DNA from: Christensenellaceae bacterium
GTDB taxonomy: Bacteria; Bacillota; Clostridia; Christensenellales; Christensenellaceae
Reading direction: 5' to 3'
NCBI GenBank assembly: GCA_017523755.1
Contig: JAFWWA010000030.1
Location: 1 to 64,000, forward strand
Length of the DNA: 64,000 bases
The notes under the pieces were generated by a model that worked only from the letters and a program-made list of their open reading frames with translations, was not told the origin of the DNA and ran no database searches. How positions within the stretch are numbered: position 1 is the first letter of the stretch; each line of letters starts with the position of its first letter. Both the position numbers and the translations under genes were made by a program. Positions 43,726 through 63,739 of the stretch are shown here, one piece after another.

Positions 43726-46257
43726 TCAGGCCGTCACTATCCTGCTGGCATCCTCGAGGCCCAGAAGCTTTATAGCGTCCTCGCGCATCTTGTATTTTAA
43801 GATCTTTCCCGCAGCGTTCATCGGGAAGCTGTCCACGAACACAACGTATCTCGGGGTCTTGTGCTTGGCCATGTGATCTCTCACGTAGGCCTTTATCTCC
43901 TCCTCGGTCGAGGTGACGCCTTCCTTTAAGATGACGCAGGCCATTATCTCTTCCCCGTAGGCCTTGTCGGGAACTCCTATTACCTGGACATCGGAGACCT
44001 TCTCGTGCGTGTAGATGAAGTCCTCGATCTCCTTGGGGTAGATGTTCTCGCCGCCCCTTATGATCATGTCCTTGATGCGGCCGGTTATCTTGAAGTTGCC
44101 GTCGGGGAGGCGTCTTGCCAGGTCTCCGCTGTGGAGCCAGCCGTCCTCGTCGATGGCAGCTGCCGTAGCCGCGGGCATCTTGTAGTAGCCCTTCATTATG
44201 TTGTATCCCCTTGCGCAGAACTCTCCGTCGACGTTGTCCGGGCACTCGATGCCGGTCTCGGGATCTACTATCTTGCACTCGACACCGAATATCTTTCCGC
44301 CAACGGTGTTGATCCTGGTCTCAAGAGAGTCGGTGGTCTTCGACATCGTGGTGGCGGGGGAGGCTTCGGTCTGCCCGTAGGTGATGCAGATCTCGGTCAT
44401 GTTCATCCTGTTCACGACGTCCTCCATGACCTTTATGGGGCAGGGGCTGCCTGCCATTATGCCTGTCCTCATATGCGAGAAGTCGGTCTTCTCGAAATCG
44501 GGATGGGAGAGCATGGCTATGAACATGGTGGGCACGCCGTGGAAGCAGGTTATCTTTTCCCTGTTTATGCAGTCGAGGCTTATCCTTGGCGAGAATGCCG
44601 GTATCGGCGACATCGTGACGCCGTGGGTCATCGAAGCCGTCATGGCGAGCACCATGCCGAAGCAGTGGAACATCGGGACCTGTATCATCATGCGGTCCGC
44701 GGTAGAGAGGTCCATGCAGTCGCCTATGGCCTTGCCGTTGTTGACCACGTTATAGTGGGTGAGCATTACGCCCTTCGGGAAGCCTGTCGTACCCGAAGTG
44801 TACTGCATGTTGCAGACATCGTGCTTGTTTATGGCCGCCGCGCGCCTTAAGACCTCTTCCTGAGGCACCGTGTCAGCGTAGGAGAGCGCTTCCTCCCAGG
44901 TGAGGCATCCGTTGACCCTGCTCTCGCAGGTGATTATGTTCCTTAAGAACGGGAGCCTTCTCGTATGGAGCGGCTTTCCGGGTTCATGGTTTTCAAGCTC
45001 GGGGCAGAGCTCCTTTATTATGCCGATATAGTCCGAATCCTTGTAGCCGTCTATCATGACGAGCGTATGCGTGTCGGACTGCCTTAAGAGGTACTCTGTC
45101 TCGTGTATCTTGTATGCGGTGTTCACCGTTACGAGCACGGCGCCGATCTTGGTCGTGGCCCAGAAGGTGAGGTACCACTGGGGTATGTTCGTGGCCCAGA
45201 TGGCCACATGGTCGCCGGGCCTCACTCCTAAGGCTATGAGGGCGCGGGCGAACTCATCGACATCGTCCCTGAACTCGCTGTAGGTCCTCGTATAATCGCA
45301 GGTGGTATACCTGAACGCGTACTGGTCCGGGAACTCCTGGACCATGCGGTCGAGCACCTGCGGGAAGGTATAGTCTATTATCGTCTCTTTAGGCCATACG
45401 TACTTTCCGGTCTTCCTCGCGTTGTCATACAGCCTTCCCGGAAGGGAATCCCCGTCCATGAACTGCTGCATGAAGTTTGCAAAATGCGGGAAGACTATGC
45501 CGGCGTTCGAAAGATCCGGGTCGTAGGACTTGAGCCACTCGAGTGAGATGTATCCCTCGTAGTTTATCGATCTTAAGGACTGCATGAACTGCGGGAACGG
45601 CATGTCGCCCTCTCCCATGATCCTGTAGCTGACCTTTCCGTCCTTATATACCGAGTCCTTTATATGGGTATATTTTATGAAAGCGCCGAGATTCTGCACG
45701 GTCTCCTCGGGTGATTCCGAGGCAAACCTGTAGGGGTGGTGCATGTCCCAGAGAGCACCTACGCTGTCGCTACCTGCCGCGGCAAGGAGCGCCGCCAGCC
45801 TGTCCGTATGCGAATATACGCCGTTCGTCTCGACAAGGAGCGTGACACCGGCTTTCTCCGCGTAGGGTATGAGGCGCTTAAGTCCTTTTAAAACGACCTC
45901 GTCGTCTACCTCGTCGTCGGGCTCGGCCGTATCGTCTCCTAAGATCCTTATATACGGCGTTCCGAGCTTCCGGGCAAGATCTATATATTCCAGGAGCTCG
46001 TCAAAGGTCTTATCGGCCCTGTCCTCAAACGACAGGCTTGAGCCTGATGAAAGGCAGGGTATCTCGAGCCTTATCTTACGCAGGTGTTCTACCGTGGCCC
46101 CTATGTTCTCGGGCTTGAACGGCTGGGCGTGCACGGAAAAGATATCGTTTCCGAGACCTCTTAGCTCGACTCCCGAGAAACCGAAGTCCTTTGCGATGGA
46201 GTAAATGTCTGCCCATGAAAAATCGGGACATCCCAGTGTTGAAAAAGAAAGCTTCAT
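43726..46257 (-). CDS. Fusion: xylose-isomerase-like TIM barrel plus AMP-forming acyl-CoA synthetase
   Basis: One uninterrupted 843-residue frame. Residues 1-~270 are a sugar-phosphate isomerase/epimerase-type (AP endonuclease 2) barrel with apparent metal ligands Glu near 143 (LLVETNG), Asp near 170 (ALWDMHHP), His near 198 (KYTHIKD) and Glu near 240 (ISLEW). Residues ~285-843 are an acyl-CoA synthetase: YTSGTTGFPKG (486-496), ITYGQTEASP, DGWLHSGDLARR, GRIKDMIIRGGENIYP and the C-terminal Lys in NAAGKILKY. It likely activates a carboxylic acid to its CoA thioester; the barrel may isomerise or epimerise a related compound. Preceded by a T-box leader. GGGGAG site before ATG. Confidence 0.88.
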   Translation of the reverse strand: MKLSFSTLGCPDFSWADIYSIAKDFGFSGVELRGLGNDIFSVHAQPFKPENIGATVEHLRKIRLEIPCLSSGSSLSFEDRADKTFDELLEYIDLARKLGTPYIRILGDDTAEPDDEVDDEVVLKGLKRLIPYAEKAGVTLLVETNGVYSHTDRLAALLAAAGSDSVGALWDMHHPYRFASESPEETVQNLGAFIKYTHIKDSVYKDGKVSYRIMGEGDMPFPQFMQSLRSINYEGYISLEWLKSYDPDLSNAGIVFPHFANFMQQFMDGDSLPGRLYDNARKTGKYVWPKETIIDYTFPQVLDRMVQEFPDQYAFRYTTCDYTRTYSEFRDDVDEFARALIALGVRPGDHVAIWATNIPQWYLTFWATTKIGAVLVTVNTAYKIHETEYLLRQSDTHTLVMIDGYKDSDYIGIIKELCPELENHEPGKPLHTRRLPFLRNIITCESRVNGCLTWEEALSYADTVPQEEVLRRAAAINKHDVCNMQYTSGTTGFPKGVMLTHYNVVNNGKAIGDCMDLSTADRMMIQVPMFHCFGMVLAMTASMTHGVTMSPIPAFSPRISLDCINREKITCFHGVPTMFIAMLSHPDFEKTDFSHMRTGIMAGSPCPIKVMEDVVNRMNMTEICITYGQTEASPATTMSKTTDSLETRINTVGGKIFGVECKIVDPETGIECPDNVDGEFCARGYNIMKGYYKMPAATAAAIDEDGWLHSGDLARRLPDGNFKITGRIKDMIIRGGENIYPKEIEDFIYTHEKVSDVQVIGVPDKAYGEEIMACVILKEGVTSTEEEIKAYVRDHMAKHKTPRYVVFVDSFPMNAAGKILKYKMREDAIKLLGLEDASRIVTA

Positions 46258-53065: not shown

Positions 53066-53845
53066 ATGAACGAAAGGGAAAAGACCGTCATGCCGCAGGG
53101 CACTGATGAAGACAGCATAGATCTTCTTGAGCTTGCGCGCGTCCTGTGGGGAAGAGCCTTATTTATCATATTGGGGATGATAGTCGGAGCTGCTGCAGTT
53201 TTTGCGGTCATGAAATTTCTTATAACGCCCGAATATGAGGCGACTTCTACCATATATATATTCTCAAAGACGACGAGCATCACGTCTCTTGCGGACCTTC
53301 AGATAGGGAGCCAGCTTACCGAGGACTTCCAGATAATAGCGACCACGAGGGAGGTTGTCGAGTCTGTGATAGCAGAGCACAGCCTTGACGAGACCTATGA
53401 GACCCTTTCAAAGAAAATTAGCGTCAACAACCCCAACGCGTCGCATATGCTATCGATAACGGTGACCGACACCGATCCCGGAAAGGCTGCTGCCGTGAGC
53501 AACGCGATCTCCGACAAGCTGAGAGACCAGATAGCGGACATAATGAATACCGACAGACCGTCGGTCGTCGAGCGCGCGGTCATACCGAAAAAGCAGAGCA
53601 GTCCGAACGTAAAGAGGAACACCGTCATAGGCGCCCTTGCGGGAGCAGTGCTGGTAGCCGGATTCATAATAATAAGGTACCTGATGGACGATACCGTGAA
53701 GTCGAGCGACGACGTTGAGAAATACCTGGGACTCGATACTTTAGCGGAGCTCCCGTATATCCGTGAGAAGGGTAAGGCTAAGAAGCGGAGCGGGAACGGC
53801 TACTACGGATACTATGGACCAGGGGACGGTAAGAACAGGAAATGA
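53066..53845 (+). CDS. Polysaccharide chain-length/tyrosine-kinase adaptor (CapA/Wzz-type)
   Basis: A 259-residue protein with two membrane helices (ALFIILGMIVGAAAVFAVM near 30-50 and VIGALAGAVLVAGFIII near 190-208) enclosing an extracytoplasmic Wzz domain, and a short cytoplasmic tail rich in Gly/Tyr. In Firmicutes such proteins activate the CpsD kinase and set polymer length. First gene of the polysaccharide operon; four-base overlap with the sortase gene. The tail sequence NGYYGYYGPG resembles the Tyr cluster of CpsD. Confidence 0.88.
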   Translation: MNEREKTVMPQGTDEDSIDLLELARVLWGRALFIILGMIVGAAAVFAVMKFLITPEYEATSTIYIFSKTTSITSLADLQIGSQLTEDFQIIATTREVVESVIAEHSLDETYETLSKKISVNNPNASHMLSITVTDTDPGKAAAVSNAISDKLRDQIADIMNTDRPSVVERAVIPKKQSSPNVKRNTVIGALAGAVLVAGFIIIRYLMDDTVKSSDDVEKYLGLDTLAELPYIREKGKAKKRSGNGYYGYYGPGDGKNRK

Positions 53846-54693
53846 AAAGGTCCAGGCTCATAGCAGGTATAACGGGTCTCGTGATAATGGCGGCAGGAGT
53901 CGGGCTTTTGGGCTATGAGGGAGCCTCTTATATCCGTGACAGGAAGGCGCGCGAAAAGGAGCTTGAGGCTGCTTTAAGGGAGCCTGATATACGGCAGGAA
54001 GAGAAGACTGAATTACTGAGGGAAACGGAAAAGGCTCCTGAAGCGGCAGTTAACGCGGATAAGGAAGAAGAGCAGTCTGAAGCCCCGGTTCAGGAAGAAA
54101 AGGAGCCCTACGTCTCAAAGATAGATTTTGAGGCGCTTTGGGATATAAACACAGATATATACGCCTATATAGAGATAGACGGTACCGACATATCATATCC
54201 GGTACTGCAGTCGGTGACGAACGACGGATACTATCTCAACCATACGCCCGAGGGAAAGAGTGGAAGACCGGCGTCGATATTCACCCTTAAGGCCGACAGC
54301 AGGGATTTCACGGACTTCAATACCGTCATCTACGGGCACAACATGAAGAACGGTCTCATGTTCGGGAAGCTCAAGGAATACAGGGATGAGGAATATCTAG
54401 ATTCCCACAGAACGATAAGGATATACCTGCCTGACCGCGAGCTCGTATATAAGGTGTTCGCGGCAGTGGTATATGACGACAGACTGATAACGTCATACTA
54501 CAAAAATGACGATCCGGAGGCATGCGCGAGGTACCTCGATTCCATATACGGGAACAGGGATATCAACAGCCATGTTTTAAAAGACACAGAAGTGACGGAA
54601 GAAGACAGGATAATCACGCTCAGCACCTGTGTCAGAGGGCAGATGGATGCCCGTTATCTTATAGTGGCGGTGCTGACAGATGAGATCACATAA
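53842..54693 (+). CDS. srtB: Class B sortase
   Basis: A 283-residue protein with an N-terminal membrane helix, a charged linker (Glu/Lys-rich, residues ~30-95) and a sortase domain with catalytic His166 (VIYGHNM), Cys263 (LSTCVRGQ) and Arg271 (DARYLIV). The NGLMFGKLKEYRDEEYLDSH stretch is typical of class B sortases. It should cleave a sorting signal and attach the protein to the wall. Overlaps the Wzz-like gene by four bases and the LCP gene by 14. A candidate substrate with SPKTG is two genes downstream. Confidence 0.93.
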   Translation: MKRSRLIAGITGLVIMAAGVGLLGYEGASYIRDRKAREKELEAALREPDIRQEEKTELLRETEKAPEAAVNADKEEEQSEAPVQEEKEPYVSKIDFEALWDINTDIYAYIEIDGTDISYPVLQSVTNDGYYLNHTPEGKSGRPASIFTLKADSRDFTDFNTVIYGHNMKNGLMFGKLKEYRDEEYLDSHRTIRIYLPDRELVYKVFAAVVYDDRLITSYYKNDDPEACARYLDSIYGNRDINSHVLKDTEVTEEDRIITLSTCVRGQMDARYLIVAVLTDEIT

Positions 54694-55675
54694 ATTCTTA
54701 CTGAGCGCTGCGGCGGCACTCATAATGATCGCGGCTGCGGCAGTTGGAGCGATGTTTGCTTTTAAGGACGATCAGGAGGAAACAAAAACGCTCCCGGGAT
54801 ATGAGGACTCCTACGACTCTGAGAGCGATGATGAGGAGTGGGACAGCACTATAGTCGAGAACGGAGTCAGGTATAGGCTTGACCCTGATATAGAGACGGT
54901 GCTGTTTCTGGGAGTGGACGACGGCGGAGAGAAGTCAGAGCTCATAGCAGGCTCAGGCGGCAGGGCGGACACCATACTGCTCCTGATACTTGACGACAGC
55001 AAAAAAAGCATGAAAGTGCTCTCGGTATCAAGGGACACCATGGCCGAGGTCGACGCCTATAAGACGGACGGAAGCTATTCCTATTCGTCGCTTACGCATA
55101 TAAACATGCAGTACGCATACGGCGACAGTCCGACAAGGAGCGCATATCTGATGAAAAAGACGGTGTCGAAGCTCCTTTACGGGATAAGGATCGACGGATT
55201 CTTTTCTCTTACTGCAAAAGGCATAAGGAAGGCCGTGGACCTTATGGGTGGGCTTGAGATAACGATGCCTGACGATTATACGGAGATAGACCCGCGCTAT
55301 GAAAAAGGCGCTAAGCTAAAACTCTCCGGCGAAGATACGGAAAGGCTCTTAAGGTTCAGGGACATCACCGTTGCCGGCAGCAATGAGTCCAGGGTCGAAA
55401 GACACCTGAAGCTCATAGATTCGGTATTCACCGGACTTGGAGGCCGTATAGGCGGAAAGAATTTAAAAAAGCTGATGGATCTTGCGGGTGATGAGGCTGC
55501 TACCGATCTTGACGCGGAGACATTAAAGAAGCTTTCAGACTACTCTCTTGAGGAGAGGATGTACACTCTTCCGGGGTCTGTAGTGGAAGGTGAGGACCAC
55601 GATGAGTTCCATGTGGACGAAGAGGCCTTAAGGAAGCTCATAACCGGACTGTATTACAGGCCGGAAGAAGAATGA
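54680..55675 (+). CDS. LCP-family (LytR-CpsA-Psr) glycopolymer transferase
   Basis: A 331-residue protein with an N-terminal helix (LSAAAALIMIAAAAVGAMFAF) and an LCP domain: VLFLGVDDGG, GRADTILLLILDDS, VLSVSRDTMAEV and RLLRFRDI. LCP enzymes transfer undecaprenyl-linked glycopolymers onto peptidoglycan. Its presence suggests that the polysaccharide made by this locus ends up wall-linked. Confidence 0.9.
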   Translation: MRSHKFLLSAAAALIMIAAAAVGAMFAFKDDQEETKTLPGYEDSYDSESDDEEWDSTIVENGVRYRLDPDIETVLFLGVDDGGEKSELIAGSGGRADTILLLILDDSKKSMKVLSVSRDTMAEVDAYKTDGSYSYSSLTHINMQYAYGDSPTRSAYLMKKTVSKLLYGIRIDGFFSLTAKGIRKAVDLMGGLEITMPDDYTEIDPRYEKGAKLKLSGEDTERLLRFRDITVAGSNESRVERHLKLIDSVFTGLGGRIGGKNLKKLMDLAGDEAATDLDAETLKKLSDYSLEERMYTLPGSVVEGEDHDEFHVDEEALRKLITGLYYRPEEE

Positions 55676-55687
55676 ATCGTATTTTAT

Positions 55688-55701
55688 GAGGTGAGCACCT
55701 C
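55688..55701 (+). repeat. Short inverted repeat before the sortase-substrate gene
   Basis: GAGGTG-AG-CACCTC; possible mRNA processing or stability hairpin between the LCP gene and the surface-protein gene. Confidence 0.45.
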
Positions 55702-55738
55702 TTAAGATAAGTCTTTCAAAAAAGGAGGATATTTAAAT

Positions 55739-56281
55739 ATGAAGAAAATGCTCAAAGTCATGACGATCTTTACTGTTCTGACTCTTCTTCTCACCATGGT
55801 GACGGGGACTGTTTTTGCTGCAGGAAGCAAATCCGATGTCGTAGAAGTCGAGGCGAAAGCTGACGGCGCAGACGTTGAGCTCTCTTATGCCGATGCATCA
55901 GTGGAGCTTACAGCTAAGATAGCCGCGAGCAAGATCGATGGTGCAAAAGAAGAAGAGATGGATGTCATCTGGCAGAAGGATATCACATCCAAGACTCTCC
56001 CTGTGGATCTTACATTCAAGGTATCTCTTGATAAGGGCCAGGAAGGATATGTATATCACTATACCGATGGTGACTGGCAGCTTGTCGGTAAGGTCAACGC
56101 ATCTATCACTTTCAGCAGCCTTTCGCCTGTCGGCGTTGCTGTAAGAACGGTATCTTCCGATTCTTCAGGAGGAGACACTTCTCCCAAGACCGGAGACAGC
56201 GGACTGCTTCTGTCCCTTGCAAGCTTTGCTATAGTTATGGGCGGAGCCGTTGCGGGCATCTCTTTCAGAAAGAAAGACTGA
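55739..56281 (+). CDS. Cell-wall surface protein with SPKTG sorting signal
   Basis: A 180-residue secreted protein: signal peptide (residues 1-~28, cleavage near VFAAG), a ~115-residue beta-rich domain, a Ser/Gly linker and SPKTG at residues 148-152 followed by a hydrophobic helix (LLLSLASFAIVMGGAVAGI) and the tail SFRKKD. SPKTG/NPKTG-type signals are substrates of class B sortases in Clostridia, and a class B sortase lies two genes upstream. Very strong AAAGGAGG site and codon use suggest high expression. Confidence 0.9.
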   Translation: MKKMLKVMTIFTVLTLLLTMVTGTVFAAGSKSDVVEVEAKADGADVELSYADASVELTAKIAASKIDGAKEEEMDVIWQKDITSKTLPVDLTFKVSLDKGQEGYVYHYTDGDWQLVGKVNASITFSSLSPVGVAVRTVSSDSSGGDTSPKTGDSGLLLSLASFAIVMGGAVAGISFRKKD

Positions 56282-56291
56282 CAGGACAACT

Positions 56292-56318
56292 CTTTTGGGG
56301 GAGATGATCCCCCAAAGG
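56292..56318 (+). promoter_or_regulatory. Intercistronic hairpin overlapping the ribosome binding site of cpsB
   Basis: CTTTTGGGGG (56292-56301) pairs with CCCCCAAAGG (56309-56318). The right arm runs into the AAAGGAG site of the next gene, so it can hide it. No T run, so not a full terminator. Confidence 0.6.
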
Positions 56319-56331
56319 AGCTTTATGTTTA

Positions 56332-57066
56332 GTGACTATGATCGGGATCGTCGATTTACATTCACACATCCTGCCCTATGTCGATGACGGGGCGTTAAGA
56401 AAAGAAGAGTCTGACATGCTCATAGGCATGCTTTATTCACAGGGGGTACGCATAAGCTGTGCCACGCCCCATTTAAGAAAGGGCATGTTTGAGACGTCTG
56501 ACGAGGATATACTAAAGCAGTTTGAAAAACTTGAAGAAAGAACGAAGGCATCCGGGAATGATATTCGGATGTTTCTTTCAAGGGAATACCACTGCGATGA
56601 GCTTTTTATTGAGAAGCTCAGGCAGGGAAAGATACTGCCTCTTGGAAATAGTAAAGCTCTCTTAATAGAGTTTTCACAGTCACATTCCATAGAGGATATA
56701 GAGAAGTATATAAAGCTTGTCATGGATCATGGCTATGCTCCCGTTATAGCGCACATAGAGCGCTATCCGGTCTTTAAAGGTCAGCTTGACAAAGTCAGAC
56801 AGCTGGCAGATATGGGGGCATATATCCAGATAAATGCGGGGAGCATATTAGGCAGGGAAGGCATGAGGAGAGCCATGAGGTGCAGGAAGCTTATCAGCGA
56901 AAAAGCTGTACACGCTGTTGCATCTGATGCGCATGATCCGTATGACCGTCCAGCAGAGCTTGACCGCTGTTATGAATTGATCAGAAAAAGGTATGGGGAA
57001 CAGACAGCAAATGAACTGATGTATATAAATCCCCTTAAGATATTAGGCCTTTTAAAAGGAGAATGA
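56332..57066 (+). CDS. PHP-type protein-tyrosine phosphatase (CpsB/YwqE family)
   Basis: A 244-residue PHP phosphatase: DLHSHILPYVDDGA (metal ligands), ATPHLRKGMF, HIERYP and SDAHDPYDRP. These proteins dephosphorylate the CpsD kinase and adjust capsule synthesis. The start is GTG 56332 or ATG 56338; either keeps the domain whole. Located between the sortase substrate and the kinase. Confidence 0.9.
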   Translation: MTMIGIVDLHSHILPYVDDGALRKEESDMLIGMLYSQGVRISCATPHLRKGMFETSDEDILKQFEKLEERTKASGNDIRMFLSREYHCDELFIEKLRQGKILPLGNSKALLIEFSQSHSIEDIEKYIKLVMDHGYAPVIAHIERYPVFKGQLDKVRQLADMGAYIQINAGSILGREGMRRAMRCRKLISEKAVHAVASDAHDPYDRPAELDRCYELIRKRYGEQTANELMYINPLKILGLLKGE

Positions 57067-57072
57067 CGTTAT

Positions 57073-57795
57073 ATGAAGAGTATCGGCCGCTTCACGGTAG
57101 TTGATCTTAAACTCGAAGAACCGCCTTATGAATTAAATGAAGAACTTAAACTATTAAGGACGAATCTGCTTTTCTGCGGAACGGATAAACGCGTCATTCT
57201 TATTACCAGCGCATTTTCAGGTGAAGGTAAGTCCACGGTCACACTTGATCTCTGCCAGACTCTTGCCGAGCTTGGTAAAAACGTGATACTTATCGATGCT
57301 GACTTAAGAAGATCTGTTCTTAAGGATAATGTCGAAGGAGCTCCTCAGGGTACAGGCCTTTCATATTATCTTTCAGGTCAGTGCGATGTCGATCAGATCA
57401 TCTGCAGGACGACTACTGAGAATCTCTCTGTAGTATTCAGCGGTGCTGTGCCGCCGAATCCTACGGAGCTGCTGGCAAATCCAAGGATGAAGGAGCTTAT
57501 CGACCTATGCAGACTGGAATATGACTATGTCATAATCGACTGCCCTCCGGTGGGGCTTGTAGTTGATGCTTCGGTCATAGCGCCTGTGTGTGACGGAAGC
57601 CTGATACTTATAGAGTCAGGAGAAGTCAAATATCGTTTGGCACAGGAAGTAGTGACAAAGCTTAAGCTGACCGGATGTCCGATATTGGGAGTCGTATTAA
57701 ATAAGGTCGGGCATAAGCGGAACGGAAGATATTACGGGAAATACTACGGGAAGTATTACGGTAAAAAGTATAAGAACTACTATACGAAGTACTGA
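57073..57795 (+). CDS. Bacterial tyrosine kinase (CpsD/CapB type)
   Basis: A 240-residue BY-kinase: Walker A SAFSGEGKST, Walker A' LIDADLRRSV, Walker B DYVIIDCPP, and a C-terminal Tyr cluster made of repeated YYGK units. Autophosphorylation on that cluster controls polymer export with the Wzz-like partner encoded at 53.1 kb. Seven bases after cpsB. Confidence 0.93.
   Translation: MKSIGRFTVVDLKLEEPPYELNEELKLLRTNLLFCGTDKRVILITSAFSGEGKSTVTLDLCQTLAELGKNVILIDADLRRSVLKDNVEGAPQGTGLSYYLSGQCDVDQIICRTTTENLSVVFSGAVPPNPTELLANPRMKELIDLCRLEYDYVIIDCPPVGLVVDASVIAPVCDGSLILIESGEVKYRLAQEVVTKLKLTGCPILGVVLNKVGHKRNGRYYGKYYGKYYGKKYKNYYTKY
57730..57765 (+). repeat. Three tandem 12-base repeats encoding YYGK
   Basis: TATTACGGGAAA, TACTACGGGAAG and TATTACGGTAAA in direct succession within the kinase gene. 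Gain or loss of a unit keeps the frame and changes the number of phosphorylatable Tyr. Confidence 0.85.
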
Positions 57796-57839: not shown

Positions 57840-59294
57840 ATGAATACAAAACAGCTCAAAGGCTGGTTAAAGCATGGCGATTTCATATTGCTGGATATAC
57901 TCTGTCTCCAGATCTGTTTTATTTTAAGTTTCTGGCTTATACGGGGCTATGGAAATCCATACGGCTTAAGTAGCTACCAGTACCAGGCAATAATCCTTAT
58001 AGTGAGCCAGTTCGCTGTGATCCTGTTCACGAACAATTACAGCGGCATTTTACGAAGAAAAAGATTCGACGAATTGGTTGCGGTGATCAGATATATCGTG
58101 TGGATACTGGTCATAGCATTTTTTTATCTGTTCCTCGTGAAGGATTCTGCTGAAGTCTCCCGCCTCCAGTTTGGATTTACAGCGGTATTCTTTATTATAC
58201 TGGGTTACTGTTTCAGACAACTGAACAAATATAGGGTGTTCAGAAGTGGTATAAGCAGGAACAGATCGATCGTTCTTATTACAGGAAAAGACTATGCTGA
58301 AGAAGCACTGGAGAAACTTAATGACCCGAAGATTTATAAGGACTATGTGGTCTCAGGAGTTATCCTTCTTGATTCAGATATCCCTGTTGAATTTGAAGGG
58401 ACAAATGTTCCTGTAACTTCATTAGGGGGAGAGGCAATGAGTGAACTTATCCATTCATGGGTGGATGAAGCATTTATACTTCAACCTGAGGATCTGCCTT
58501 TTCCGACACAGCTGGTCAATGACCTTATGACGATGGGCATTACTGTCGACTATTCCATGACAGCGATAAGTGATGATCGTTGGCCGGTAACAGATATACG
58601 GAAGCTTGGGAAATATAGGGTTTTGACAAGCAGTATAAAGTTTGTATCAGCAGGACAGCTCGCCTTAAAACGTGGACTGGACATCCTTGGCGGGCTAGTC
58701 GGTTGTATATTTACAGCGATATTGTATTGCTTTGTTGCGCCGCTCATACAGATTAAATCACCCGGTCCGGCTTTTTTTATACAAGAGCGTATTGGGAAGA
58801 ATGGTAAACCATTTAAGATGCATAAATTCCGTACTATGTATCTGGATGCTGAGGAACGCAAAGCTGAACTTATGACTAAGAACAGTGTGAGTGGCGGTAT
58901 GATGTTCAAAATGGATGATGATCCGAGGATCATAGGCAGTGAAAAGAAGAATAAGAATGGTAAGCCAATAGGCATTGGCAATATATTGAGATCTTTGTCT
59001 TTGGATGAATTCCCACAGTTTTTTGACATCCTGATTGGAAACATGAGTCTTGTAGGATGGAGACCATGTACGCTTCAGGAATGGGAGAAGTATGATTTGC
59101 AGCATCGTATCCGTGCCAGTATGAAACCTGGACTTACAGGCATGTGGCAAGTGAGTGGAAGAAGCCAGATCACTGATTTTGATGAAGTCGTAAGGCTAGA
59201 TCGTGAATATATTGAAAATTGGAGTTTGTGGCTTGATATTAAGATTCTACTTAAGACTGTATGGGTAGTGATTGTTAGAAAAGGCGCTAAATAA
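57840..59294 (+). CDS. Undecaprenyl-phosphate sugar-1-phosphate transferase (priming glycosyltransferase)
   Basis: A 484-residue polyisoprenyl-phosphate hexose-1-phosphate transferase: four to five N-terminal helices, a NAD-like middle part (SIVLITGKDYAEEALE), and the C-terminal catalytic domain KRGLDILGG, KMHKFRTM, RSLSLDEFPQ and KPGLTGMWQVSGRS. It starts repeat-unit assembly by placing sugar-1-phosphate on the lipid carrier. AAAGGAGG before ATG. The DNA becomes AT-richer within this gene. Confidence 0.93.
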   Translation: MNTKQLKGWLKHGDFILLDILCLQICFILSFWLIRGYGNPYGLSSYQYQAIILIVSQFAVILFTNNYSGILRRKRFDELVAVIRYIVWILVIAFFYLFLVKDSAEVSRLQFGFTAVFFIILGYCFRQLNKYRVFRSGISRNRSIVLITGKDYAEEALEKLNDPKIYKDYVVSGVILLDSDIPVEFEGTNVPVTSLGGEAMSELIHSWVDEAFILQPEDLPFPTQLVNDLMTMGITVDYSMTAISDDRWPVTDIRKLGKYRVLTSSIKFVSAGQLALKRGLDILGGLVGCIFTAILYCFVAPLIQIKSPGPAFFIQERIGKNGKPFKMHKFRTMYLDAEERKAELMTKNSVSGGMMFKMDDDPRIIGSEKKNKNGKPIGIGNILRSLSLDEFPQFFDILIGNMSLVGWRPCTLQEWEKYDLQHRIRASMKPGLTGMWQVSGRSQITDFDEVVRLDREYIENWSLWLDIKILLKTVWVVIVRKGAK

Positions 59295-59526: not shown

Positions 59527-59931
59527 GTGAGAAAGAAAACAGCAGCAATCTTCTTGATACTCGCTCTTCTCATGGTCCTGTTCTTCACATTTCAGAACCC
59601 GGAGAAGTCCAAAATCCTGAGCGAGAGTGTGAGAATGTAGCTTGGAAACATAGGGATAGATGTTGAGTATAAAAGATTGCGATCTAACGTCCACATCCTG
59701 GAATACTTCATCGTCGGATTGGCGGTGTGTGGGTTCTTTAAGAGTCGAGGTTGGAAGGTATGGGGTGGTGCAGCTGTAGGTTGCGGCATCGGCGTGATTG
59801 ATGAAAGGATCAAAGTATTGCTGCCGGGACGGGAATTGGAAATTTATGACCTGATTAGAAATTGTCTCGGTGTGCTTATTGCCGTTTCTATTACTGTTGT
59901 TGCAAAACGGTTGAAAAAACGTGAGGTGTGA
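59527..59931 (+). pseudogene. VanZ-like membrane protein with an in-frame stop
   Basis: From GTG 59527 (AAAGGA upstream) the frame encodes VRKKTAAIFLILALLMVLFF...ESVRM, then TAG at 59638-59640, and continues in the same frame with LGNIGIDVEYKRLRSN...HILEYFIVGLAVCGFF up to 59931. Together the two parts form a full VanZ-like protein of ~134 residues (signal-anchor helix, then three helices with the HILEYF and DERIK motifs). It looks like a recent nonsense mutation; read-through or a sequencing error cannot be excluded. A C-terminal frame starting inside at 59677 has no good site. Confidence 0.75.
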
Positions 59932-59932
59932 G

Positions 59933-60835
59933 ATGAAAGGAATTATTCTCGCTGGAGGGGCAGGAACCCGTCTGTATCCGTTGACTATGGTCACGTCGAA
60001 ACAGCTCTTGCCCGTATACGATAAACCAATGATCTATTATCCGTTATCAACACTAATGTTAGCGGGTATTCGTGACATTCTAATAATCTCCACACCTGAG
60101 GATACTCCTAGATTTGAGCATCTTCTTGGGGATGGCCATCAGTTCGGTGTGAGTCTCTCATATAAAGTTCAACCGAGTCCGGATGGTTTGGCGCAAGCAT
60201 TCATTATCGGCGAAGATTTTATTGGAGACGATCCGTGTGCCATGATCCTTGGAGACAACATTTTTTATGGGAATGGCTTTTCACATATCTTGAAGAAAGC
60301 TGTAGAAGAGACTGGAAATAATAAAGCAACTTTCTTTGGCTATTATGTTTCCGATCCGGAACGATTTGGGATTGTTGAGTTTGATGAGAATGGAAAAGTG
60401 CTCTCAGTGGAGGAAAAGCCCAGTAATCCTAAGTCTAATTATGCAATAACGGGTTTGTATTTCTACCCGGCAGGTGTAAGCGAGAAAGCTAAGAAAGTTA
60501 AACCATCAGCACGTGGAGAATTAGAAATAACAACCTTAAATGAAATGTATCTCCAAGAACAAGCATTGAATGTTGAATTGTTTGGACGTGGGTTTGCTTG
60601 GCTCGATACAGGTACAATGGATAGCCTTGTTGAAGCGGCAGATTTCGTTCAGATGATTGAAAAAAGACAGGGTGTAAAAATATCTGCTCCTGAAGAAATC
60701 GCTTATAGGTATGGTTGGATCAGCAAGGATGAGTTGATGGTATCTGCTGACAGGTATGGGAAAAGCCCCTATGGCCAACATCTAAAAGCAGTAGCAGAGG
60801 GTAAAGTTTATACAACTGTGAGGAACGGAAAATGA
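59933..60835 (+). CDS. rfbA: Glucose-1-phosphate thymidylyltransferase
   Basis: A 300-residue nucleotidyltransferase: [57 protein letters not shown]. It makes dTDP-glucose. The start is ATG 59933 one base after the vanZ-like stop; four codons of upstream in-frame Met (59921) overlap that gene. Clearly AT-richer than the left part of the window. Four-base overlap with rfbB. Confidence 0.95.
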
Positions 60836-61851
60836 CGATATTTGTTACTGGCGGCGCCGGCTTCATCGGCGGAAATTTCATCCACTATCATCTGAAAGAA
60901 CACCCGGAAGACAGGGTTGTATGTATCGACAAACTCACCTACGCCGGGAACCTGAGTACACTCGCTCCCGTGATGGGAAACCCCAATTTCCGCTTCTGTA
61001 AGCTGGATATCTGCGACCGGGAGGGAGTTTTTGCCCTCTTTGAAGAGGAAAAGCCCGATGTGGTCATCAACTTCGCAGCGGAAAGCCACGTGGATAGATC
61101 CATCGAGAACCCCGGCATCTTCCTGCAGACCAATATTATCGGAACGGCGACCATGATGGATGCCTGCCGTGCGTTTGGCAACGTGAGGTATCACCAGGTA
61201 AGCACGGACGAGGTCTACGGTGATCTTCCGCTGGACCGCCAGGACCTGTTCTTCACGGAGGAGACGCCGATCCACACCAGCTCGCCGTACAGTTCATCCA
61301 AGGCTGGAGCGGATCTGCTTGTCCTTGCCTACCTCCGTACATATGGCCTGCCTGTGACGATCAGCCGGTGCTCCAACAACTACGGTCCCTATCACTTCCC
61401 GGAGAAGCTGATCCCGCTCATGATCGCCAACTGCCTGAATGACAAGCCTCTCCCGGTCTATGGGCAAGGCCTGAACGTCCGCGACTGGCTGTACGTAGAG
61501 GATCATTGCAAAGCCATCGACCTGATTGTGAGAAAAGGCCGGATCGGCGAGGTCTATAATGTGGGCGGCCACAATGAGATGGCCAATCTCGACATTGTGA
61601 AGCTGATTGTCCATGAACTGGGCAAGAGTGAGGATCTCATCACCTACGTGACGGATCGGAAGGGACATGACATGCGGTATGCCATCGACCCCACCAAGAT
61701 CCACAACGAGCTGGGATGGCTTCCGGAGACCAAGTTTGCGGACGGCATCAAAAAGACGATTCAGTGGTATCTGGACAATAAGCCCTGGTGGGAAGAGATC
61801 ATTTCCGGGGAGTACACCAAGTACTACGAGCGGATGTACGGCTCTAGATAA
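60832..61851 (+). CDS. rfbB: dTDP-glucose 4,6-dehydratase
   Basis: A 339-residue extended [35 protein letters not shown] and catalytic YSSSK. It converts dTDP-glucose to dTDP-4-keto-6-deoxyglucose. Codon use differs sharply from the genes on both sides (many CTG, CGG, CGC, GGC, AAC codons) and the DNA is GC-richer, a sign of separate origin. rfbC and rfbD are not in the window; the product may feed the transaminase downstream. Confidence 0.95.
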
Positions 61852-61859
61852 GGGATTGA

Positions 61860-62579
61860 ATGCAGATTTCAGAAATATACATAAAGACAAAGAAAGTCGT
61901 TTTTCCTCTATCAATTGCCTTAATTGCGGATTTGCATGGGGTAGAAACAGGCCCAATCATCGAACAATTACAAACGATATGTCCTGATGTAATTACCATA
62001 GTGGGAGATGTTATAGATAAAGATGACGATTCATACCCACTTGCCTTTTTTGGAGAGTGCGTAAAGATAGCGGATACGTTCTTTTCATTGGGAAATCACG
62101 AAAGAAAGATTACAGAAGACAATATCAACGCAATATCGACTACTGGAGTAAGAATTCTGGATAACACTTGGCAAAAGTATAAAGAGTGCTTCTGTTTTGG
62201 GGGTATGACCTCCCCATTTGTGATGGAATGGCGTGAAACACAGCAGACAAGACTGAAATATGCACTTCCTTATTACAAATGGTTGGATGATTTTCAAAGA
62301 CAAAATGCCTTTAGGATATTGTTAGACCATCATCCAGAGAATTACGGCCGGGTAACGAGAGCTAAAGACATTGACCTCATCTTGTCCGGACATGCTCATG
62401 GTGGGCAGATAAGGATTCTTGGCCATGGATTATACGCTCCACATCAGGGTTTCCTTCCCAGATATACGAGTGGGGTATATGAAAACCGACTGGTTGTGAG
62501 TAGAGGACTATCAAATTCGAAGTTGATTCCGAGATTTGGTAATCCAAAAGAAATAGTTGTTGTAAATATTGCAAATTGA
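61860..62579 (+). CDS. Metallophosphoesterase
   Basis: A 239-residue calcineurin-like phosphoesterase without signal peptide: ALIADLHG, VGDVIDKDD, LGNHERKI, LLDHHPEN and SGHAHGGQI, all metal-site blocks of the family (YkuE/LpxH-like). Its place between two dTDP-sugar genes is uncommon; a role on lipid- or nucleotide-linked sugar phosphates is possible. Eight bases after rfbB; AT-rich. Confidence 0.87.
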   Translation: MQISEIYIKTKKVVFPLSIALIADLHGVETGPIIEQLQTICPDVITIVGDVIDKDDDSYPLAFFGECVKIADTFFSLGNHERKITEDNINAISTTGVRILDNTWQKYKECFCFGGMTSPFVMEWRETQQTRLKYALPYYKWLDDFQRQNAFRILLDHHPENYGRVTRAKDIDLILSGHAHGGQIRILGHGLYAPHQGFLPRYTSGVYENRLVVSRGLSNSKLIPRFGNPKEIVVVNIAN

Positions 62580-62605
62580 AAAATCATATAGAAGGAGTAA
62601 AGGGA

Positions 62606-63739
62606 ATGATTCACTTTAATGTTCCGCCCTTTGTTGGCACAGAATTCCAGTACATGAAAGAGGCTGTGGAGAACCACAAAATCTGCGGAGATGGGCCTTT
62701 CACAAAAAAATGCAATGAATGGCTGGAAAAACGCTTTGACGCAAAAAAAGTGATGCTCACAACCAGTGGATCTACAGCACTGGATATGGCAGCCTTATTG
62801 TGTGGCTTACATCCGGGAGATGAAGTAATTCTTCCCAGCTTTACTTTTTCTAGCACGGCTAATTCTTTTGTTTTGGCTGGTGCCACGCTTGTGTTTGTCG
62901 ATATTCGCCCGGACACGATGAACATCGATGAGACGAAGATCGAGGCAGCAATCACTGAAAAGACAAAGGTCATTGTCCCCGTTCATTATGCTGGTGTTGC
63001 CTGTGAGATGGATACGATCATGGATATTGCCAGAAGGCACAATCTCATGGTTGTTGAAGATGCGGCGCAAGGTGTGATGAGCACCTATAAGGGTAAAGCT
63101 CTTGGCACTATTGGTGACTTTGGATGCTTCTCCTTCCATGAGACGAAGAACTATTCCATGGGCGAGGGCGGCGCAATCATCATCAATAACGAAGCATATA
63201 TCGAAAAGGCAGAAATACTCAGGGAGAAGGGAACCAATAGAAGTCAGTTCTTCCGTGGACAGGTTGCGAAATATAACTGGGTTGACTTTGGTGACAGTTA
63301 TCTTCAGAGCGACTTGAATGCCGCATATCTGTGGGCTCAGCTTCAGGTTGCAGATGAAATCAATAATAATCGCCTGGCGACGTGGAATACATACTGGAAT
63401 GCTTTCAAGCCATATGCTGACAGAGGCCTGATTACTCTGCCTACGATTCCTGAAGGCAGTGTTCATAATGCCCATATGTTCTATATCAAGTTTAGCGATC
63501 TGGAAACCCGGCAAGCATATATAAAGTATATGAAAGACAACGACATTTTGTGTGTATTCCATTATGTTCCTCTTCATTCTGCTCCTGCTGGTGAGAAGTT
63601 CGGACGATTCCATGGCGAAGATGTCCATACGACGGCTGACAGCGATCGGCTTGTTCGCCTTCCCATGTATTACAACATTGATCCAGCAGACCTGCAAAAG
63701 GTAATCGAGAAAACAAAAGAGTTTATTGAAAATATGTGA
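62606..63739 (+). CDS. dTDP-4-amino-4,6-dideoxygalactose transaminase family protein (WecE/RffA)
   Basis: A 377-residue DegT/DnrJ/EryC1 aminotransferase. PLP Lys is in FHETKNYSMGEGGA; other blocks are KVMLTTSGSTALDMA, ILPSFTFSSTANSF and the WecE-like LREKGTNRSQFFRGQVAKYNWVD. With RfbA and RfbB it would give dTDP-4-amino-4,6-dideoxy-galactose (fucosamine). Start at ATG 62606 behind AAGGAG. Confidence 0.92.
   Translation: MIHFNVPPFVGTEFQYMKEAVENHKICGDGPFTKKCNEWLEKRFDAKKVMLTTSGSTALDMAALLCGLHPGDEVILPSFTFSSTANSFVLAGATLVFVDIRPDTMNIDETKIEAAITEKTKVIVPVHYAGVACEMDTIMDIARRHNLMVVEDAAQGVMSTYKGKALGTIGDFGCFSFHETKNYSMGEGGAIIINNEAYIEKAEILREKGTNRSQFFRGQVAKYNWVDFGDSYLQSDLNAAYLWAQLQVADEINNNRLATWNTYWNAFKPYADRGLITLPTIPEGSVHNAHMFYIKFSDLETRQAYIKYMKDNDILCVFHYVPLHSAPAGEKFGRFHGEDVHTTADSDRLVRLPMYYNIDPADLQKVIEKTKEFIENM

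Follow-up and report, generated by a model that had tools for sequence, protein, structure and literature searches.

The window analysed here is the whole 64,000-nucleotide stretch of DNA from a Christensenellaceae bacterium (contig JAFWWA010000030.1), and it includes the head of a capsule locus. The six genes at this point (53066-57795, all on the + strand) encode Wzz, SrtB, LCP, an SPKTG protein, CpsB and CpsD, in the order given in a preliminary description of the region, and domain matches agree with the assignments of all but the SPKTG protein. The first gene encodes a Wzz/CpsC-type chain-length protein (53066-53845; PF02706, 1.9e-12; TIGR01006, 2.6e-42) with a Tyr-rich C-terminus (GYYGYYG). 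It is followed by genes for a class B sortase, SrtB (53842-54693), and a membrane-anchored LCP (LytR-CpsA-Psr) glycopolymer transferase (54680-55675). The gene for the small SPKTG wall protein, 180 aa in length (55739-56281), precedes those for a CpsB/CapC phosphotyrosine phosphatase (56332-57066; PF19567, 1.5e-68) and a CpsD BY-kinase with a Tyr-rich C-terminus (57073-57795; TIGR01007, 2.1e-58). The genes had also been described as overlapping. This holds for the first two junctions, Wzz/SrtB (4 bp) and SrtB/LCP (14 bp), but not for the other three, which are gaps of 63 bp (LCP to SPKTG gene), 50 bp (SPKTG gene to CpsB) and 6 bp (CpsB to CpsD).

Further along the + strand are a polyprenyl-phosphate sugar-1-phosphate transferase, the priming enzyme for the capsule repeat unit (57840-59294; TIGR03025, 5e-96) and a set of genes for capsule sugar supply (59921-63739), namely an RmlA-like nucleotidyltransferase (PF00483), an RmlB-like dehydratase (PF16363), a metallophosphoesterase (PF00149) and a DegT aminotransferase (PF01041). 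The capsule locus runs on beyond the end of the window, and open reading frames further along the contig (L413), read by eye, appeared to encode glycosyltransferases, pyruvyltransferases, a polymerase and a flippase. Wzz/CpsC, the CpsD kinase, the CpsB phosphatase, LCP and the priming transferase are also the components of standard Gram-positive cps operons (CpsABCD, where LCP is CpsA). However, the standard operons include neither a dedicated sortase nor a small sorted protein.

The small gene has a strong ribosome-binding site (aaaggagga, 55721-55729, + strand), and a stem-loop lies shortly 5' of it (55680-55709, + strand; fold of 55673-55740, z -3.5). Directly 3' of the gene is a terminator-like stem-loop of 13 bp with a weak U tail (56290-56320, + strand; z -4.75), which may act as a partial terminator or as a site of mRNA processing. 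Across loci, the median z for stem-loops 3' of the small gene was -2.87, compared with -0.2 to -0.6 for the other genes of the operon, and the tendency holds even where the small gene is in mid-operon, as in the window. This suggests that the small protein may be made in excess over the downstream products. An Rfam search of the operon returned no genuine match.

The sortase and LCP enzymes

The best PDB matches of the window sortase were SrtB structures, and it matched the class B model TIGR03064 (4.1e-43) with 147.4 bits, slightly below the cut-off of 153.75; it also matched PF04203 (1.2e-12). The catalytic residues H166, C263 and R271 are retained and were invariant in an alignment of 14 sequences. 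The LCP domain (PF03816, 3.4e-19; PDB LCP matches, 2.3e-12) includes the conserved Arg residues R118 and R225/R227.

The SrtB is predicted from its sequence to cleave and transpeptidate the SPKTG motif. The C. difficile SrtB recognizes (S/P)PXTG (PMC4155245), and the SPKTG motif of the small protein (56180-56194, + strand) fits this specificity, which is consistent with SrtB as its anchoring enzyme. This SrtB was also the only sortase found in the host genome, a metagenome-assembled genome (MAG) that is 69 % complete. As far as could be tested, both points favour this SrtB over some other sortase as the anchor of the small protein. The C. difficile enzyme resembles the window SrtB in being a class B sortase that uses an SPKTG-type motif instead of LPXTG. 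However, it is associated with neither a capsule operon nor an LCP, and its substrates include larger adhesins and hydrolases (PMC4155245).

Conservation of the SrtB-LCP-small protein triad

Sortases were present in all 18 Christensenellaceae genomes searched, 66 in total. The search for the small protein gave homologues in four genomes only, that of the window and three others. In each of the three others, the small gene adjoins the sortase that is the best match to the window SrtB, and an LCP gene is beside them. The order in one (G008) is identical to that in the window, Wzz-SrtB-LCP-SPKTG-CpsB-CpsD, and in two (G002 and G004) it is CpsB-Wzz-CpsD-VanW-SrtB-LCP-SPKTG, VanW being assigned from a domain match. 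Two more triads were found in G001 (L083 and L089), where capsule genes are not nearby. Only six of the 66 Christensenellaceae sortases are by an LCP, and all six are accompanied by a small SPKTG protein.

When a profile of the small protein was used to search the class, the same module was recovered in other families (e.g. L196 and L198). A survey with this profile then covered 250 genomes, one per genus, from one large Lachnospiraceae-like family, and 40 neighbourhoods were read. There were 39 small homologues (defined as 300 aa or less), and an LCP is no more than two genes away from 35 of them. SrtB is within two genes of 26 and within six genes of 29, and capsule genes are within six genes of 25. 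For ten, there is no sortase within six genes, and this counts against a role of the small protein as a capsule carrier.

The preliminary description had proposed a survey of the neighbourhoods of srtB. In the SrtB-based search, in which organism names were available, an LCP is at most two genes from SrtB in 72 of the 79 loci, and a small anchored protein is present as well in 65. These loci are from Lachnospiraceae, Christensenellaceae, Oscillospiraceae, Clostridiaceae and Coriobacteriia (Olsenella, Enorma and an Eggerthellaceae MAG). In the genus that includes M. glycyrrhizinilyticus, LCP, SrtB and the small protein are side by side in 26 of 58 genomes.

Pooling all surveys gave 128 triads, 113 of them non-redundant, in Clostridia and Coriobacteriia. 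Wzz, CpsB or CpsD is within six genes in 61 of the 113. The absence of these genes from the neighbourhood of about half of the triads, which is due in part to contig ends, also counts against the carrier role. Nevertheless, as far as could be tested, the sortase-substrate pair is not found mostly away from polysaccharide genes, as it is beside an LCP in most relatives. The order of the three genes is permuted, with at least four arrangements, the commonest being SrtB-LCP-small (49), LCP-SrtB-small (48) and small-SrtB-LCP (19), so the set survives rearrangement. With 113 non-redundant occurrences, the arrangement goes far beyond what chance would produce, and the triad is conserved and not accidental.

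The LCP-linked sortases also cluster in one region of a tree of 148 SrtBs. The label 'LCP-linked' changes five times on this tree, compared with a mean of 36.6 for shuffled labels (none of 500 shuffles was as low), in a data set where many of the LCP-linked entries were found via the small protein and the Christensenellaceae entries are exhaustive.

A requirement for a sortase in capsule display has been reported for M. gnavus, where srtB4 (RGna_12035) and the adjacent LCP gene (RGna_12040) are each needed (PMC13121745). The srtB4 cluster (RGna_12030-12060) includes a tyrosine phosphatase, RGna_12055. The authors mention candidate sorted proteins near sortases, and their main text names neither a substrate nor a mechanism for srtB4 (PMC13121745). 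In the literature searched, we found no other paper that brings together sortases, LCPs and capsules in Lachnospiraceae. Like the srtB4 cluster, the window and its relatives have srtB by an LCP gene in a capsule locus with CpsB, CpsD and Wzz; the window differs in gene order and in its host, a member of the Christensenellaceae. In M. glycyrrhizinilyticus, a congener of M. gnavus, the order is CpsB-Wzz-CpsD-LCP-SrtB-SPKTG protein. This order fits the numbering of the M. gnavus genes, in which RGna_12030 would be the small gene. No M. gnavus genome was found in the collections searched: a scan with a 16S primer pattern gave nothing, and a member of the genus (G921) was set aside because its nearest proteins differ from known M. 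gnavus structures, which leaves the M. gnavus small gene as a prediction and counts against the carrier role.

These findings bear on an alternative in which the LCP makes the standard linkage of capsule to peptidoglycan and the sortase and SPKTG protein are an independent surface protein system that shares the operon. Linkage to peptidoglycan is the standard role of LCPs in Gram-positive capsules (PMC12220298; PMC7831098), and sortases are often encoded next to their substrates. However, mere sharing of an operon would not readily explain why the trio is kept through many changes of gene order, also where capsule genes are not nearby, why the LCP-linked sortases have their own region of the tree, or why M. 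gnavus no longer displays its capsule once srtB4 is lost (PMC13121745). We consider this alternative unlikely.

The small protein and its ends

The window protein has a complete sorting signal, with a signal peptide (residues 1-27), the SPKTG motif (148-152), a predicted membrane helix (153-177) and a basic tail (RKKD). Cleavage is predicted near residue 27, and the mature protein would begin with A-G-S, followed by a beta-sandwich (35-137) and a Ser-rich linker ahead of the motif. AlphaFold models the beta-sandwich confidently (pLDDT about 90 or more over most of it), together with a disordered Ser/Gly linker and the C-terminal helix. Pfam and PDB profile searches returned nothing specific and the protein belongs to no Pfam family; matches to the Pfam and TIGR cell-wall anchor models were marginal only. 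A fold search against the PDB gave no match at E < 0.001, and a function can therefore not be read from the fold. Weak FIIND matches were seen in two relatives.

In a first alignment of seven sequences, the sorting motif apart, only A27 and S30 were invariant, and both are at the signal cleavage site. The codon for Ser30, the proposed acceptor, is at 55826-55828 (+ strand), and the residue is two or three positions past the predicted cleavage site. Ser is enriched at the mature N-terminus. With cleavage sites placed by a simple rule and not by a trained predictor, a Ser is found within the first six mature residues of 108 of 120 non-redundant LCP-linked small proteins, compared with 125 of 332 other secreted ORFs. 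By the same rule, Ser-Pro is found within the first eight residues of 66/120 compared with 5/332 (Fisher p 1.5e-39), and mature position +3 is Ser in 57 % compared with 8 %. An HMM-free version of the comparison gave 52/79 and 2/47. The mature window protein itself begins with AGSK and not with SP, which counts against the carrier role.

The C-terminal motif is also retained. Among the 113 non-redundant triads, SPKTG (55) predominates by a wide margin, followed by SPQTG (14) and APKTG (10), which agrees with the (S/P)PXTG specificity of the C. difficile SrtB (PMC4155245). There are exceptions that count against the carrier role, as about 20 small proteins end directly after the motif without a membrane tail, and at two loci (L213 and L214) the domain is present and the motif is absent. 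A coiled-coil protein that has the same C-terminal domain at these two loci might have been the general form in Lachnospiraceae, but this idea was rejected because only 2 of 150 genera gave a match.

Between the two ends, the small proteins vary, with a beta-sandwich, an InlB-B-like repeat or simply a short linker. The extreme is represented by 11 triads with a tiny member (75-133 aa) that consists only of signal peptide, SP, linker, [SA]PxT motif and tail. All 11 keep the SP and the motif, and about 25-80 residues would remain after processing. As both ends persist while the middle varies or is missing, selection appears to keep the two ends.

This pattern does not sit well with a role for the SPKTG protein as a wall-anchored lectin or scaffold, in which the capsule would be held non-covalently, the LCP would place some chains directly on peptidoglycan and SrtB would anchor the lectin only. 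The beta-sandwich that was modelled confidently in the window protein, and in many relatives too, could bind sugar, and a lectin would also account for the need for a sortase in M. gnavus. However, the 11 tiny triad members are without any folded domain, others have the unrelated InlB-B-like repeat, and the small protein is tied more tightly to LCP than to the capsule genes. A lectin is, in our view, improbable.

The close tie to LCP could instead mean that the small protein helps LCP or polymer export, for example as a chaperone, initiator or length gauge, and that anchoring merely holds it in place. It is a constant neighbour of LCP, even without an adjacent sortase, and in the window its gene is between those for LCP and CpsB. 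Here again, the tiny versions leave little space for a helper fold, and it is the middle of the sequence that diverges fast and the ends that persist. We regard a helper role as very improbable. The domain-less small versions and the srtB4 phenotype are less consistent with an independent surface protein, a lectin or a helper than with a protein that bridges capsule and wall.

A probable protein bridge between capsule and wall

The proposed bridge has a precedent in Actinomyces oris. There, LcpA loads glycan onto GspA, the product of a neighbouring gene, and a sortase afterwards attaches GspA to the wall (PMC6381275). A 2021 review calls LcpA/GspA a so far unique case (PMC7831098). As in A. 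oris, the lcp gene adjoins the gene for a predicted sortase-anchored protein in the 113 non-redundant triads. Unlike the triads, A. oris uses the housekeeping SrtA, and its glycan pathway is not encoded in a single operon.

We propose that the LCP loads capsule polymer onto the small protein and SrtB ties that protein to peptidoglycan, and we consider this the probable arrangement. A Wzx/Wzy-type polymer would be built on a lipid carrier, with its length set by Wzz, CpsD and CpsB. The finished polymer would then be passed by LCP from undecaprenyl-pyrophosphate to the small secreted protein, where the most likely acceptor is the conserved serine of the free N-terminus. SrtB would cut the SPKTG motif and join the C-terminus of the small protein to peptidoglycan. 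The small protein would thus carry the polysaccharide covalently, as the bridge between capsule and wall, and the capsule would be held via a protein or peptide and not directly on the glycan strand. Against this, to our knowledge the Firmicute LCPs studied so far transfer polymer to peptidoglycan. A sortase working directly on the polymer was also considered and was dropped because there is no precedent.

The preliminary description had suggested that polymer attachment and protein anchoring occur together, with the small protein perhaps carrying or organising the polysaccharide. The arrangement of genes on which this was based is confirmed, and the interpretation is partly supported. The link between attachment and anchoring is strongly supported by the conserved and shuffled clusters and fits the need for srtB4 in M. 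gnavus (PMC13121745), whereas the bond between polymer and protein, the acceptor residue and the order of steps are what we infer.

The locus in the window is thus best described as what is likely to be a capsule operon with its own attachment module. More tentatively, and with rather less confidence than we have in the bridge itself, we suggest that in many Clostridia and some Coriobacteriia LCP may place the polymer, by phospho-transfer, on the conserved N-terminal serine of the mature small protein, whose C-terminus may be attached to peptidoglycan by a dedicated sortase of class B. This could be a second, widespread mode of capsule anchoring in Gram-positive bacteria. The textbook view of Gram-positive capsules is that LCP enzymes attach them directly to peptidoglycan. 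If the bridge is correct, protein-bridged capsules would be common in gut Clostridia, beyond the single Actinomyces case. It would also account for the sortase requirement in M. gnavus, whose capsule display has been linked to colonisation and inflammation, and would supply both the missing M. gnavus sortase substrate and a residue to mutate.

Small proteins and neighbours of the sortase and LCP genes

The small SPKTG protein gene is followed directly by a stem-loop (56290-56320), and the corresponding genes in relatives also tend to have a stem-loop immediately downstream, including those that lie mid-operon. A possible role for this structure is that of a partial terminator, which would lift the output of SrtB, LCP and the small protein above that of CpsB and CpsD. 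The small proteins of two independent relatives (loci L197 and L134) gave weak matches to FIIND (PF13553; E 0.05 and 0.12), which may reflect a common beta-sandwich shape only.

About 20 distinct small proteins encoded beside LCP or SrtB (loci L268, L271, L272, L287, L296, L306, L317 and L387-L395) end in SPKTGE, APKTGEF or similar at the stop codon. A hydrophobic tail and basic end are absent from these proteins and are not encoded past the stop either, leaving the sortase motif with nothing to retain the protein in the membrane. Two genomes from a single genus encode, next to SrtB and LCP, a protein of 285-299 aa (L213, 6367-7266; L214, 7353-8210) that has a signal peptide, a coiled coil and, at its C-terminus, a conserved domain, and that lacks a sorting motif.

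Tyrosine-rich tails and other genes

Wzz (53066-53845) and CpsD (57073-57795) both have Tyr-rich C-terminal tails, GYYGYYG and YYGKYYGKYYGKKYKNYY, respectively. Such a tail appears to be unusual on Wzz. CpsD and SrtB flank a VanW-domain protein gene (L067, 8218-9507; L068, 8157-9458) in C. intestinihominis and Christensenellaceae genome G004. An 843-aa ORF on the minus strand of the window (43726-46257) reads by eye as a putative fusion protein that joins an isomerase-like TIM barrel to an AMP-binding ligase.

Origin of the capsule locus

The window SrtB (53842-54693) clusters with Lachnospiraceae capsule sortases and that of G008, a Christensenellaceae genome, and not with those of Christensenella G002 and G004. 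This grouping, together with the presence of the module in only 4 of the 18 Christensenellaceae genomes, suggests that capsule loci have been horizontally transferred.
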